From a virus, in the IMG/VR virus record IMGVR_UViG_3300032893_000067, positions 1 through 52,275 of that record: a DNA stretch of 52,275 nucleotides. One strand, 5' to 3'. Within the stretch, counting starts at the first letter, position 1, and every line of letters starts with the position of its first letter. The translations under genes and the position numbers were made by a program. Below are positions 35,697-42,262 of this stretch, piece by piece. Below the pieces are notes generated by a model. It had not been told where the DNA came from. It ran no database searches and saw only the letters and a list, made by a program, of their open reading frames with translations.

Positions 35697-36947
35697 ATGG
35701 CAACTACAAATACGTTTGGAACTCCGAATAATTCAGTAGGTACGCTAAACGGTTTCTTCAAAGAAACCTATGCTGACAAGCTTGGCGAACTTATTCCTGA
35801 TGGAGTAAAGATTCTAAACAAAATTAAATTCATGTCAAAAGAAAAACAACCTGGAAACCTCTACCACCAACCCGTTATTCTCGGTTTGGAGCATGGTGTT
35901 ACCTTTGCTGCTAGTGATGAAGATGCTTTCAATTTGCAAGCTCCCGTTGCTGGTCAGATTAAGGACGCCCAAGTTCGTGGTAACCCAGTAGTTCTCCGAT
36001 CATTACTCGGATATGCTGCTGCTAGCCGTGCTGCTCTTGGTGGCCAAAAGGCTTTCATGGATGCAACAAAGTTTCTAGTAGCTAATATGCTACGATCTAT
36101 GGCTAAAAAGCTTGAAATCGAAATGCTCTATGGTCAAATTGGCTATGGAACAATCGGTTCTGCTGCTTCTGCCCCCACCTATACAATTACCACGTCCGAA
36201 TGGGCTCCTGGTATTTGGGCTGGTGCTGAAGGAATGCCAATCGAAATTCGTGATTCTTCAGGCGCAATCAGCCGAGGTACTTCAGTAGTATCTTCAGTTG
36301 ATATGACAGCTAGAACAATTACCCTTCAGTCTTCAATCCCAGGTGTTGTCGCAACCGACGTTATCTGGCATAAAGGCGCTTATGGTAATGAGTTCCCCGG
36401 AATTCACAGAATTCTAACCATCTCAAGTGGTATCCTTTTCAATATCGATGTTGGTCAGTTCAACCTCTTCAGAGGCAACCAATACGACGCTCAATCTGGC
36501 GCACTCAGCTTTACCAAACTAGGTCAAGCAGTCGCAAGAGCAGTTGAAAAAGGGTTGGATGGACGAGTGCTTTCACTTGTTAATCCACGTGCATGGCAGA
36601 ATATTAACTCTGACCAAGCCGCACTACGTAAGTACGATTCAAGTTATAAAAAGGATCGCGCTGAGAACGGTTCAGAATCCCTTCTATTCCATTCACAAAA
36701 CGGTGAAATCGAAATCGAACCTTCAATCTACGTTAAAGAAGGTTACGCTTACGTTATTTCTCTCGATGAATGGATGAGAGTTGGATCAACAGATATGACC
36801 TTCCGTAGACCTGGTCAAGGCGAAGAATTTTTCAGAGATTTAGAGAACGCTGCTGCTTATGAACTCAGACTCTACAGTGATCAAGCTGTGTTCTGTATGG
36901 CTCCCGGTCGAAACACAATTATAATCAACGTAGTAAATTCTAACTAA
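35697..36947 (+). CDS. Major capsid protein (HK97-fold coat)
   Basis: The 416-residue protein is the probable coat subunit by size, place after scaffold and decoration genes, and strong expression signals (AAGGAGATAAAA ahead of the ATG, favoured codons). Sequence features such as the N-terminal helix region (LNGFFKETYADKL), the conserved-looking HQPVILGLEHGVTF strand and a C-terminal MAPGRNTIIINV agree with P22-type or N4-type coats. The gene is followed at once by an intrinsic terminator, so it ends its unit. Confidence 0.85.
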   Translation: MATTNTFGTPNNSVGTLNGFFKETYADKLGELIPDGVKILNKIKFMSKEKQPGNLYHQPVILGLEHGVTFAASDEDAFNLQAPVAGQIKDAQVRGNPVVLRSLLGYAAASRAALGGQKAFMDATKFLVANMLRSMAKKLEIEMLYGQIGYGTIGSAASAPTYTITTSEWAPGIWAGAEGMPIEIRDSSGAISRGTSVVSSVDMTARTITLQSSIPGVVATDVIWHKGAYGNEFPGIHRILTISSGILFNIDVGQFNLFRGNQYDAQSGALSFTKLGQAVARAVEKGLDGRVLSLVNPRAWQNINSDQAALRKYDSSYKKDRAENGSESLLFHSQNGEIEIEPSIYVKEGYAYVISLDEWMRVGSTDMTFRRPGQGEEFFRDLENAAAYELRLYSDQAVFCMAPGRNTIIINVVNSN

Positions 36948-37036: not shown

Positions 37037-37654
37037 ATGAAGACTTGCAAAATATGCAAATTTACAAAGCCACTAACAGAATTTAATCCTGCCAGTAAAT
37101 ATAAGGATAAGGTCTATTATCGTGGTGAATGTAAAGAATGTAATCTAAAACAACAATCTTCAAATCAAGCTGCTCAAATAAAATACCGCAATTCTGAAAA
37201 AGGACGAAAAGCTAAATCAGACTATAAGAAGACAGAGAAATATAAAGAATATCAAAGAGAATATGATAAAACCAGAGTAGGAGATCCTAAACGAAAAGAA
37301 AGTCAATATGCTTATTTAAAAAGACGTTTAAAAGAAGACCCATTTTTTCGTTTAAGATTAAATGTAAGAAATCGTTTAAGAAATATGATGAAAGTAAAAA
37401 ATTGGCATAAAGATAATACTTTTAAAAATTATATAGGATGTGAATTAGATGCTCTTAAAATGCATATAGAAAAACAATTTACAGAAGGTATGACATGGGA
37501 TAATTATGGTCATGGAGAAAAATGTTGGACATTAGATCATATTTATCCATTATCATTGGCAAAAACCGAAGAAGAGATGTATAAACTTTGTCACTATACA
37601 AATCTACAACCCCTATGGCGCCTAGATAATATCAAGAAGTCCAATAAAATCTAA
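37037..37654 (+). CDS. HNH homing-type endonuclease with its own promoter
   Basis: This 205-residue protein has an N-terminal zinc module (CKICKFTKPLTEF ... CKEC), a Lys/Arg-rich linker and a C-terminal HNH-type core with WTLDHIYPLSLA and YTNLQPLW. It is inserted after the coat terminator, carries its own sigma70-type promoter, and its last 23 nt overlap the convergent gene 37632..37865. These are signs of a recently arrived mobile gene. Confidence 0.83.
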   Translation: MKTCKICKFTKPLTEFNPASKYKDKVYYRGECKECNLKQQSSNQAAQIKYRNSEKGRKAKSDYKKTEKYKEYQREYDKTRVGDPKRKESQYAYLKRRLKEDPFFRLRLNVRNRLRNMMKVKNWHKDNTFKNYIGCELDALKMHIEKQFTEGMTWDNYGHGEKCWTLDHIYPLSLAKTEEEMYKLCHYTNLQPLWRLDNIKKSNKI

Positions 37655-38329: not shown

Positions 38330-38673
38330 TTAATTTCCTTTTTTAATTTTTCTATTTCTTTAAGAGCATAATCAACTTCATGTTCATCGTGTCTCATCGC
38401 TACTTCATAATCTTGTAAATTCCAATTATCTCTAGATTCGCCATTATTATAAATTGCTTCTAAAGCAACTATTGCAATATTAAGCATTTCTATTGCTTTC
38501 CAATACTTTATAGCTACTTCATTTAAATCATCTAATTTAATAATTGGATTTTCATCAGACCATTTGGTTCCGGCATAAAATCCACATGCTCTTAAATCAT
38601 CAGAATCTTTCATATCATTTTTTAATTTTAGATATTCTTCTATAGCCTTATCTATTTGTTCTTTTCTTGTCAT
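38326..38673 (-). CDS. Hypothetical helical phage protein
   Basis: This 115-residue, mostly helical protein with GFYAGTKWSDEN near residue 31 is of a kind seen in other phages and lacks a known role. A 4-nt overlap joins it to the PagL-like gene. Confidence 0.6.
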   Translation of the reverse strand: MTRKEQIDKAIEEYLKLKNDMKDSDDLRACGFYAGTKWSDENPIIKLDDLNEVAIKYWKAIEMLNIAIVALEAIYNNGESRDNWNLQDYEVAMRHDEHEVDYALKEIEKLKKEIK

Positions 38674-39179
38674 AAATTAAACCCCACATTAAATAGAAAG
38701 AAATCTCTTCCCTTATTAATCTGGCTCATTCCGGCATTACTAAAATGTCTATATTCAAATCCGCACCATTTACCTTTATTATCTTTAATACCAAATCCTA
38801 ACTCTTCTGTAAATTCAAATTGTGTTCCAAGTTGTGAATCTACTTGAGTAATATAAGATGCACCAAAATAAGTTTCGCCATAAAAATAACCCGGCTCCAC
38901 TCTAATACCCAAAGAATCACTTACAAATCCTGAGCTACGTTTTAATTTATCGGCATCTAAAGAATCAAACCATGCCCCAAGATCAAACTTATTATTAAAT
39001 ATTCTGCTAATAGGATTTATATAGCCAAGTGATATATATTTGGTTTCAGCCACACCATCTTGATTTGGCTGGTCAAATCCAAGGCCATACTTAAAAGTAA
39101 TATCTCCGGCATATAGATTTGTCATATATAACTGTCCAAAAAGCATGATTATGGTCATGTATATATAACATTTTTTCAT
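38670..39179 (-). CDS. PagL-like lipid A 3-O-deacylase (acyloxyacyl hydrolase family)
   Basis: This 169-residue predicted outer-membrane barrel has a signal peptide (about 1 to 24, ending YAG). The signature EYRHFSNAG near the C-terminus contains His145 and Ser147 of the PagL catalytic triad; Asp159 stands where PagL has Glu. PagL enzymes remove the 3-O acyl chain from lipid A. The phage may remodel the host surface to hinder rival phages or host immune signals. The start is the ATG overlapping the RNA ligase stop (TGATG) with GGAG upstream. Confidence 0.7.
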   Translation of the reverse strand: MKKCYIYMTIIMLFGQLYMTNLYAGDITFKYGLGFDQPNQDGVAETKYISLGYINPISRIFNNKFDLGAWFDSLDADKLKRSSGFVSDSLGIRVEPGYFYGETYFGASYITQVDSQLGTQFEFTEELGFGIKDNKGKWCGFEYRHFSNAGMSQINKGRDFFLFNVGFNL

Positions 39180-40288
39180 CAATGAAACTCCGATTGTTCT
39201 TTAGACAAATATTCTTCACTTATAAGTTTTAATAGTTTTCTACCAATAGAACATTCTGTTTCTATTAGCGGTTTTATTACAACACCTTCTCTAACTTTCT
39301 GTTCTGGAACAAATACAGAATCACCTTTTGTTAAGGTTTTTGCTGCTTCTTTATTAAATGGTCCTCTATAAAATTCTGGAACTATATCAAATCCTCTTTC
39401 TTTTGCAATTGTTTGAAATTCATCAACATTTGCATAATGTGATTCAGTTTCATTCTGATATTTAAGATCAAATACAACTAATTTGTGTTCACCATTTTTA
39501 CATCCATATGTATAATTTTTTTGAATACCATCTCCATAAAGCTCGCCATACCAAATTTCACCAGGCTTTACTTTATTTTTGGCATCATATTTTTCAAGTA
39601 CTTTTCCATAGACATCTTCACCATAAAACCCTGTATAATTCCATCGTTGTTGTAATTGGACATTATTAGATCCATATACCCATTCAAATTTGGGCGATAG
39701 CCCAAGCCATTTTAATAGCTTTCTCCATGGATTATTAGCTACATATGGAACCATTCCAAATCTAATATTACTTCCATGTACTTTTTCTGTAATGGATACT
39801 TGTTCGCCTTCTTCAAATAAGTCTGGATACCATTTAAAGTTATCAATGCCGCCATATTTATGGAAGAATGGATTCTCTTTTGGTTTATCTCTTTTTTTAA
39901 CAGCAGCTTGTTGATAATTAGCTTGTGGAGGTTCATATTTAGTTATTCCAAGAACTTCTGCTAGATCTGTTTCTAGTTCATAGTTTAATGGGGTATCAAG
40001 TAACTCTGGATCAACTATTAGGCCCTGAGAATATTCTCCTCTAATCTTAATTTGTCTTACACGATGTTTATTAAGTTTAATTTTTGAATCTGCACCAAAT
40101 AGTTTATTCTCAATATTTTGAGGAAGGATAGAATCAATTGGCACATAAACTACTTTATCACCGGGAGTATATCGTCCTTTAGAAACAATTACATTAAAAT
40201 CATATACTTTAACAAATTCTAAAGCAGTTGCATTATTATGGGGTAATATTTCCTTAATTGTTGTTAGAGGAATTTTATATTCAGACAT
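39179..40288 (-). CDS. RNA ligase, Rnl5/DraRnl-like with N-terminal OB domain
   Basis: This 369-residue enzyme joins RNA ends using ATP. The N-terminal 115 residues form an extra OB-like domain (VKVYDFNVIVSKGRYTPGDK), as in the Deinococcus ligase type. The nucleotidyltransferase domain has motif I EKVHGSN with Lys169 as the AMP site, a GELYGDG motif, motif IV EGVVIKP, and a C-terminal KLLKLISEEY for motif V. It follows the polynucleotide kinase gene, so the pair can repair cut RNA, most likely host tRNA cleaved by anticodon nucleases. Confidence 0.88.
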   Translation of the reverse strand: MSEYKIPLTTIKEILPHNNATALEFVKVYDFNVIVSKGRYTPGDKVVYVPIDSILPQNIENKLFGADSKIKLNKHRVRQIKIRGEYSQGLIVDPELLDTPLNYELETDLAEVLGITKYEPPQANYQQAAVKKRDKPKENPFFHKYGGIDNFKWYPDLFEEGEQVSITEKVHGSNIRFGMVPYVANNPWRKLLKWLGLSPKFEWVYGSNNVQLQQRWNYTGFYGEDVYGKVLEKYDAKNKVKPGEIWYGELYGDGIQKNYTYGCKNGEHKLVVFDLKYQNETESHYANVDEFQTIAKERGFDIVPEFYRGPFNKEAAKTLTKGDSVFVPEQKVREGVVIKPLIETECSIGRKLLKLISEEYLSKEQSEFH

Positions 40289-41143
40289 TTAAAATTCTCC
40301 ATCTGTGCATTGTAAACATGTGAATCCTCTTTTCCGCCACATATCTACAACTTGCTTTCTATCATCTATTATAAAATAAGGTGTATAATTTGTCAAGATT
40401 TCAAAGTCTAAAAGTATCTCTTTTGCTATATTATCCTGTCTATAATCTCCTTCATAACGCATGAATAGATCAAATCTCATATCATGAGGTAAATAATCAT
40501 ATAGCCAGCTTAGAGTTAAATTTCTATAATTTGAGGGCCTTCCAGAACAAAATAAAATAATATTAGATTTTAAAGCAGTAAGCATCTCCAAACACCACAT
40601 ATTAGCCTGATCATTTATTAATTGCTCAAAAAATGACATCCAATCCTTTTTACCTTCTTTTTTGACATAATGAAGTCTATGGTCTAAATTACATAAAGTT
40701 CCATCTAAATCGCATATAATAGCCAATGGCTTTTCACCTTCGGGCCATATTCTAATAACTTCATCAGCTTCACTATCTTCAACTCGTTCATATTTAGAAA
40801 AGAAAAAATTTAATACTTTTTTAGCCGTTTTCTCATCTTTAATTGTCAAATGTTCTCTATTTTTACAGCGTTGTAGACAAGTATTATAGGATTCATGTAA
40901 TACAACGATCTTTGTCTTATAGGTTCCTACCGCATTTAAATAGCGACTTCTTTGTTCTTTAGAGAAGTTCATCCTATCTACAATAATATCTTTTTGAGCG
41001 ATAACTGCCTCTGTAAATAGTTGAAAATGTTCAGTTTTTCCTTGTAAATCTTGATTAATATAAGTATATCCTTGATCTATGTATTGTTTGGCATATGTGG
41101 ATTTTCCACTTCCAGGAGGACCAACTAACAGTATTAATTCCAT
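40289..41143 (-). CDS. pnk: Polynucleotide kinase-phosphatase
   Basis: The 284-residue protein has a T4-like two-domain layout. The N-terminal P-loop kinase has GPPGSGKST at 8 to 16 and a DRMNF motif that prepares the 5' end. The C-terminal HAD phosphatase has DLDGTLCN near residue 145, SGRPSNYR near 201, and IDDRKQVVDMW, and removes 3' phosphates or 2',3' cyclic phosphates. Start at TTAAGGAGTTTTAATG. It is the first gene of the RNA-repair operon, 12 nt downstream of the 3' end of a structured RNA. Confidence 0.92.
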   Translation of the reverse strand: MELILLVGPPGSGKSTYAKQYIDQGYTYINQDLQGKTEHFQLFTEAVIAQKDIIVDRMNFSKEQRSRYLNAVGTYKTKIVVLHESYNTCLQRCKNREHLTIKDEKTAKKVLNFFFSKYERVEDSEADEVIRIWPEGEKPLAIICDLDGTLCNLDHRLHYVKKEGKKDWMSFFEQLINDQANMWCLEMLTALKSNIILFCSGRPSNYRNLTLSWLYDYLPHDMRFDLFMRYEGDYRQDNIAKEILLDFEILTNYTPYFIIDDRKQVVDMWRKRGFTCLQCTDGEF

Positions 41144-41154
41144 TAAAACTCCTT

Positions 41155-41361
41155 AAAAAACAGTGAAGAGGCCAGACGCGACTCTGACTACCGGGATAAA
41201 TAATCGACGCTTCTCCCATTTAAGGGTACTGCTCCGGACCAGCGAGCAGGTGCGTGTCTCCAGAAGGGCTTTGGTCACGTCTACACCAATGTGGCCACTG
41301 GCTCGACTAATTACGGTTCTCTTAGGAACGCCCACCTTCAGCTTTCCACGCCGCTCTTCAC
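41155..41361 (-). ncRNA. Predicted ~207-nt structured RNA upstream of the RNA-repair operon
   Basis: The predicted transcript starts at 41361, 7 nt from a consensus -10 box, and ends in six U at 41160..41155. Its very 5' end GUGAAGAG (41361..41354) pairs perfectly with CUCUUCAC (41170..41163), next to the U-run, so one helix closes the whole RNA and acts as a terminator. Further possible helices are CUGCUC/GAGCAG, UUGGU/ACCAA, CAGA/UCUG and a bulged GGUG-CGU/ACGCACC. The region is far more GC-rich than its surroundings. The size and closed ends resemble 6S RNA, but I cannot assign a family. Confidence 0.65.
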
Positions 41362-41367
41362 ATACCT

Positions 41368-41396
41368 ATTATCTCCAATATATCCATAGAAGTCAA
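41368..41396 (-). promoter_or_regulatory. Sigma70-type promoter for the structured RNA and RNA-repair operon
   Basis: Read leftward: TTGACT, 17-nt spacer, GATAAT. It predicts a start at the first base of the closing helix. No late-type motif is present, so host polymerase is expected to use it. Confidence 0.7.
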
Positions 41397-41512: not shown

Positions 41513-42262
41513 ATGTCCGAATTTATCGTTTATGGCTTAATTGATCCAGATACATTTGATATAAGGTATATTGGTAAATCTATAACTGGATTAAAAAGGG
41601 CTAATGAGCACCGAAAGCCTGCTTCATTAAAAAATGATGGAAATACACCTAAAGCAAATTGGATAAGAAAATTAAAGAATAATGGTAAGGATTATTTTAC
41701 AACTATTTTATATAACTTAGGAAATTGTCAATTTGATAAAACTACAATAAACGATATTTTATACAAAAAAGAGCAGGAATTAATAAATTATTATAATATC
41801 CTTGGTTATAATTTGACAAATAGACAAGATGGTGGACCTGGTAGTCCGGGGCGAATTTTATCAGAAGAATCAAAGAAAAAAATGTCTTTAAGTGCTAAAA
41901 AACGAGAAATGCCAAAGGCATTAAAAGATAATCAGAAGTCTAAATATAATGATCCTGAAGGTAAAAGAATTTGCTCAAAATGTGAAGAGACTAAAGAATT
42001 AGATAGTTTTGGTAAATATAAAGAAAAATTTTATAGAGTTTGTAGATCATGTTTTAATAAAAATAGACCAAAAAGAAGAGTAAAAGATCCGTATAAATCT
42101 ACAAAAATACCAGTTATTGCTAAAAATGAAAAAGAAATTATTAAATTTAATGGATTAAAAGAGGCAGCAAGATTAATTGGTGGAAAATGTAATAAAACCG
42201 GAATTAATCTGGCTATAAAAAATAATAGATCTTATTATGGATACTTTTGGAGTTTAATTTGA
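41513..42262 (+). CDS. GIY-YIG homing endonuclease with NUMOD and zinc modules
   Basis: This 249-residue protein carries four modules in order. The GIY-YIG nuclease has VYGLID, RYIGKS, and Arg in GLKRANEH. Next is a NUMOD3-like SEESKKKMSLSAKKR helix. Then comes a four-cysteine zinc module (ICSKCEETKELDSF ... CRSC). Last is a NUMOD1-like FNGLKEAARLIGG DNA-reading segment. It is a full homing endonuclease, placed between a late-type motif and the fibre genes, with AAGGATCTAA before the start. Confidence 0.88.
   Translation: MSEFIVYGLIDPDTFDIRYIGKSITGLKRANEHRKPASLKNDGNTPKANWIRKLKNNGKDYFTTILYNLGNCQFDKTTINDILYKKEQELINYYNILGYNLTNRQDGGPGSPGRILSEESKKKMSLSAKKREMPKALKDNQKSKYNDPEGKRICSKCEETKELDSFGKYKEKFYRVCRSCFNKNRPKRRVKDPYKSTKIPVIAKNEKEIIKFNGLKEAARLIGGKCNKTGINLAIKNNRSYYGYFWSLI

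Follow-up and report, generated by a model that had tools for sequence, protein, structure and literature searches.

A new family of structured non-coding RNAs encoded by diverse phages, found upstream of RNA-repair genes in a viral record

The window analysed here is the whole stretch of viral DNA, 52,275 nucleotides long. On its minus strand lies a gene for a non-coding RNA, followed by the genes for a polynucleotide kinase/phosphatase (PNKP) and an RNA ligase (Table 1). An earlier note on this DNA had described a promoter, perfectly paired ends and a position before the kinase and RNA ligase genes, and all three were present. The -35 box TTGACT occupies 41396-41391 and the -10 box GATAAT 41373-41368, with 17 nt between them. 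GTGAAGAG (41361-41354) pairs perfectly with CTCTTCAC (41170-41163) in an 8-bp terminal pairing, also on the minus strand. The kinase start codon, which follows AAGGAG behind the U-run, lies 19 nt past the structured part of the RNA. The six U were also found, but not directly after the pairing as had been claimed, because a two-base UG spacer stands between them. The stretch was correctly described as GC-rich and non-coding: the GC content is 0.55 for the RNA and ~0.49 per 200 nt at the locus, against ~0.30 in the surroundings. Only short ORFs occur there, and both that cross the RNA had no match in PHROGs, where a protein match to a crossing frame had been named as possible counter-evidence. 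Since these frames match no PHROGs family and the compensatory changes fall in helices, the protein-coding reading was rejected.

Table 1. Coordinates of the RNA gene, its structural elements and the flanking genes in the window
Feature	Position	Strand	Basis or remark
Non-coding RNA gene	41155..41361	(-)	Start predicted at 41361; structured part to 41163; U-run to 41155; R1 match and alignment A1
Sigma70-type promoter TTGACT-17-GATAAT	41368..41396	(-)	10/12 consensus matches
P1 5' strand GUGAAGAG	41354..41361	(-)	7/7 tested pairs covary
P2 5' strand GCGUG, linked to P1 by a nearly invariant CG (41352-41353)	41347..41351	(-)	Alignment and covariation
Internal loop, 5' side GAAAGCU	41340..41346	(-)	AAAGCU 42/42, first G 41/42, in the pattern-selected set
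P3 helix (base GAAGG/CCUUC) with variable multi-hairpin top	41263..41339	(-)	All five basal pairs covary
Internal loop, 3' side UGGAGA	41257..41262	(-)	42/42 in the pattern-selected set
P2 3' strand CACGC	41252..41256	(-)	Alignment and covariation
P5 hairpin GUCAG-AGUCGCGU-CUGGC, conserved loop UMGCG, abuts P1	41171..41188	(-)	Alignment and covariation
P1 3' strand CUCUUCAC	41163..41170	(-)	Covariation and fixed-offset pairing test
U-run, terminator-like tail, six U after the UG spacer behind P1	41155..41160	(-)	Read from sequence
PNKP gene	40289..41143	(-)	Flanking, outside the conserved unit
RNA ligase gene	39179..40288	(-)	Flanking, outside the conserved unit

Judged singly, the promoter, the repeat and the fold of the window RNA do not beat chance. 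Promoter-like sites were no commoner in the region than in shuffled sequences (43 vs 42.4), 8-nt inverted repeats are common there so that the terminal pairing alone was not above chance, and the single-sequence MFE z-score of -0.6 is uninformative alone. We accepted the RNA as real because unrelated phages have RNAs of the same build, whose helices covary.

Several other genes of the window were recorded. Homing-endonuclease-like genes lie at 41513-42262 and 37037-37654, both on the plus strand; the types seen are a GIY-YIG-like start with a PHROGs homing endonuclease match and an HNH/endonuclease VII type. Similar-looking endonuclease genes occur near other RNA copies (L139, L172, L097, L188). 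Right behind the ligase gene there is a PagL-like lipid A deacylase gene (38670-39182, minus strand), which suggests a Gram-negative host. The major capsid protein (35697-36947, plus strand) has a sole isolate-phage relative, from a Silvanigrella phage at 28.8% identity, and the host may therefore be related to Bdellovibrionota.

Starting from the kinase, the ligase and the major capsid protein, we collected relatives and then compared the RNA with their whole records by weak BLAST. This gave collinear short matches in several phages, and the same core was read at those places. The weak matches seeded core pattern scans, and a covariance model, R1, was then built from 44 aligned copies. Pattern scans and R1 found more than 90 distinct copies on diverse phage contigs of 4 to 177 kb, with a locus GC of 0.32-0.69. 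About 20 loci that matched the first patterns but had no P1 and P5 were discarded as chance, and GC-rich islands in the relatives were coding. BLASTN searches of phage and plasmid records gave only chance-level matches for the window and for one member, and none for a core written out from the alignment to resemble the consensus. R1 scored the window locus (41163-41361), a copy from its own training set, at 99 bits (E 3.7e-24), and this was its sole match in the window.

By comparative evidence, the RNA is real and its fold is backed by evolution. The compensatory changes that the earlier note had proposed to look for were found: among 42 core sequences 18 of 22 pairs had changed on both sides, and 96.6% of the cells were paired, against 71.4% when shuffled. 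Double-change cells numbered 241 vs 64 in the shuffles, and sliding the partners by 1-3 columns reduced pairing to 30-43%. RNAalifold recovered the same fold. For P1 we used an offset test in which P5 was located by its loop motif alone, without any search for pairing; at the fixed offset, 6.68 of 7 P1 pairs formed, vs 3.67 with swapped partners (34 members). Thirty-five further loci, picked up solely through a P2/internal-loop pattern, each gave a full-length R1 match, with P1 pairing averaging 6.84 of 7, in an alignment by covariance model that itself favours pairing.

The family fold consists of P1 (mostly 7-14 bp), a CG, P2, an internal loop, P3, whose top varies, a middle that also varies, and P5. 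The latter is a 3' hairpin of 5 bp, with a loop usually of 8 containing UMGCG, and stands directly against P1 across the family. The internal loop GAAAGCU/UGGAGA is asymmetric and, among the copies selected by pattern, nearly invariant, in part a consequence of patterns that required this core. Diverged copies found by R1 vary in this loop (GGGAAGCU/UAGAGA and others) and largely keep P1, P2 and P5. The P3 top may be a short hairpin in one copy and a tRNA-like fold in another, and some copies have T-arm-like hairpins in their variable parts. In one member (L117:5900-6104) the P3 top resembles a tRNA without the anticodon loop, having a D-like arm, a tetraloop arm and the T-arm GUGGG-UUCGAGU-CCCAC. 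tRNA identity was rejected, as ARAGORN found no tRNA in the window and, in the member loci scanned, none that overlaps the RNA. Long conserved stretches occur within the otherwise variable middle domain of the subfamilies L113, L142, L178, L195 and L121, L171, L177, which, as read from their sequences, have further conserved peripheral elements outside the R1 model. Pairing of the CG linker with the P5 loop in a pseudoknot was dismissed by eye because the exceptions fail to covary, and a K-turn reading of the internal loop because of sequence misfit.

Of 67 copies, 12 had a promoter with at least 9 of 12 consensus matches that ended 3-10 nt before P1, while mononucleotide shuffles gave an expectation of 1.1. 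Likewise, 28 of 66 copies had a T-run of at least four in the 14 nt behind P1 (5.8 when shuffled). This placement indicates that a subset of the family is built as discrete transcripts that start and end at P1. Together with the recurrent anatomy and the covarying helices, the family promoters at P1 strongly support the original proposal of a structured RNA with its own promoter. The remaining copies may be processed from longer transcripts or use other promoters.

At most 5 of 57 locus groups shared any one gene family as a neighbour of the RNA. The commonest neighbour is a terminase-like gene, from related phages. The others include genes for dNMP kinase, helicases, primase-helicases, UvsX, single-strand binding protein, Cas4 exonuclease, RusA, NMN adenylyltransferase/NUDIX-like protein, GroEL and terminase; replication and nucleotide-metabolism genes are frequent in these raw counts. 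Since the flanking genes differ among copies, the RNA-repair operon is an incidental neighbour in the window. This bears on the suggestion that the neighbouring RNA kinase and ligase have the RNA as their substrate, decoy or regulator, which would suit the 19 nt between RNA and kinase gene in the window and a contig (L003 and L221) that has both PNKP and ligase relatives and an RNA copy. The L003 and L221 stretches do not overlap, however, so this copy is not directly beside those genes. The other PNKP/ligase loci collected did not adjoin an RNA, and most copies lie beside many other genes with no such gene nearby. A decoy or substrate of the repair enzymes, one of the roles offered before, thus found no backing, and we regard any such tie as highly unlikely.

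The main rival reading is a cis-acting leader, a riboswitch or attenuator, in which a ligand-dependent P1 would act through a terminator with the U-run or would free or hide the ribosome-binding site of the next gene. The RNA resembles such leaders in an aptamer-like layout, with P1 as closing helix, an internal loop that is conserved and a periphery that varies. It also resembles them in the promoter at P1, and some copies are followed by a U-run and a ribosome-binding site. A start codon follows P1 by 11-31 nt in 17 of 24 co-directional cases, the annotated genes downstream tend to serve DNA replication and nucleotide metabolism, and copies stand in tandem like some riboswitches. A leader should always be co-directional with and upstream of the regulated gene, but of 29 clear cases 5 had a convergent gene (ORF of at least 90 aa) immediately downstream, two of them with PHROGs matches. 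Downstream genes were scarcely more co-oriented with the RNA (24/29) than upstream ones (31/41). The copies L108 (terminase) and L109 cannot lead the annotated gene downstream of them, because it is convergent. Moreover, the downstream genes belong to diverse pathways (PNKP, dNMP kinase, GroEL, primase-helicase, UvsX, Cas4 exonuclease) with no evident common regulon, no shared alternative pairing was seen on inspection, and Rfam gave no match. The attenuating leader of the earlier note is conceivable where the U-run and ribosome-binding site follow P1, fails at the annotated convergent genes and gains little from the co-orientation counts; we consider a cis-acting leader possible but rather unlikely.

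An element of the nascent transcript that modifies RNA polymerase, as in put-like antitermination, would act on any downstream sequence and need no particular neighbour. The put RNA of HK022, of ~70 nt with two stem-loops, modifies RNA polymerase in this way without a dedicated protein (PMC9378689). It resembles our RNA in being a structured phage RNA made from phage promoters with no neighbouring-gene specificity, and the start at a promoter in a subset, the frequent location in replication regions and the spread across phyla would agree with such a role. On the other hand, some copies have convergent genes downstream, the U-runs right behind P1 would end the transcript, and put is a ~70-nt RNA of two stem-loops. 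Homology to put was rejected because R1 had no match, up to E 10, in HK022 1-40000, and a put-like mode of action appears very improbable.

The covariance-model search that had been proposed (6S, RNase P, Rfam) was run on Rfam 15, whose families also cover tmRNA, riboswitches and known ribozymes, and gave no gathering-level match for the window or eight member loci, and only chance-level matches at permissive E-values. Literature searches, including the core sequence, found no description, in sources that cover preprints and many subscription journals little. On these searches the RNA family appears to be new; structured phage RNAs of still-undefined function have precedents. 6S RNA is a rod-like hairpin whose large central bubble mimics open promoter DNA. 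Our RNA shares with it the size of ~200 nt, the non-coding character and the paired ends. It differs in lacking an Rfam match even permissively and in its closed, branched multi-helix junction, where covariation supports P1, a P2/P3 arm and a separate P5 in place of a long hairpin with a central bubble, and the 6S-like identity considered earlier was abandoned.

The T4 RNAs rnaC and rnaD (species 1 and 2 RNA) are likewise phage-encoded small stable RNAs, in tandem and beside tRNA genes, and the genes near them at the T4 locus include those for a GIY-YIG homing endonuclease, dNMP kinase and an RNA ligase; the function of the two RNAs is stated as unknown (PMC9697503). With default filters R1 had no match in the T4, PG7, KM16 and JS10 regions, and with filters off its best score on T4 rnaC/rnaD was 7.5 bits, which is not significant. 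T4 rnaC (L196:2909-3172) has AGUAGCG twice and a T-arm hairpin. The first AGUAGCG alone is conserved in aligned relatives, without a P5-like context, and the second is not conserved. Homology, prompted by these AGUAGCG loops, was ruled out by the covariance model and the poor conservation. A group I or II intron was also rejected, with no Rfam match and with P1 ends that differ in sequence among members. A ribozyme or self-processing RNA would be expected to show a conserved core and variable periphery, as do the internal loop, nearly invariant in the pattern-selected set, and the highly variable peripheral domains, under a strong pairing constraint across distant phages. Yet no Rfam ribozyme matched, the ends are not conserved and there are no exon-like flanks, and we judge this reading improbable.

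Bacterial and archaeal genomes were scanned in a collection of 85 thousand species genomes. The first pattern (gap 44-74) had zero matches there and a short-gap pattern had four, all with P1 and P5, in an Armatimonadota MAG, a Gammaproteobacteria MAG, Paludibacterium purpuratum and Cerasicoccus frondis. R1 found exactly one match in each of these assemblies, whose bacteria fall in different phyla. The latter two carriers are isolates, and their copies probably lie in prophages. Tandem copies, ~16-35 nt apart, are frequent in the family and some genomes have several copies; one phage contig has three within ~1.1 kb (L223:3788-4920). The L187 copy has four tRNA genes upstream, the nearest of which ends 9 nt before the RNA, and upstream of the L180 copy a tRNA gene ends 47 nt before it.

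The explanation that we favour, with roughly even confidence, is that the gene encodes a discrete, standalone phage non-coding RNA that works in trans. Its directly supported steps are the fold, the family, the transcript architecture in a subset and the lack of a conserved neighbour. Action in trans is suggested because the patterns of cis control are lacking, namely in the convergent downstream genes and in a downstream co-orientation little above that upstream. For a standalone RNA we also counted the covariation, the positions of promoters and U-runs, the tandem and multiple copies, the tRNA genes upstream of L187 and L180 and the hosts of different phyla. Against it we counted the many copies that stand, leader-like, 11-31 nt before a start codon, and the recognisable sigma70 promoter at P1 in only 12 of 67 copies. 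The RNA would be made from an early or middle gene region and would act as RNA or as an RNA-protein particle. The internal loop and the P5 loop may form a recognition surface for a widely conserved partner, for which host RNA polymerase, the ribosome, an RNA-processing enzyme or a common phage replication protein are candidates, and the RNA could be a decoy or a scaffold while the phage takes over its host.

A highly conserved core, found mainly in phages whose hosts belong to several phyla, points to a basic, undescribed step of infection or host takeover. With the alignment and the covariance model the family becomes searchable, and the P. purpuratum and C. frondis isolates make it accessible at the bench. 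The family bears on the old question of the function of phage stable RNAs such as T4 rnaC and rnaD, though without homology to them. A bolder reading, which we regard as tentative and unlikely, is that of a new RNA class serving a general step of phage infection in hosts of different bacterial phyla. Such an RNA would act either as a ribozyme or by capturing a host machine of universal conservation, and would be encoded by phages and not by an ordinary cellular gene.
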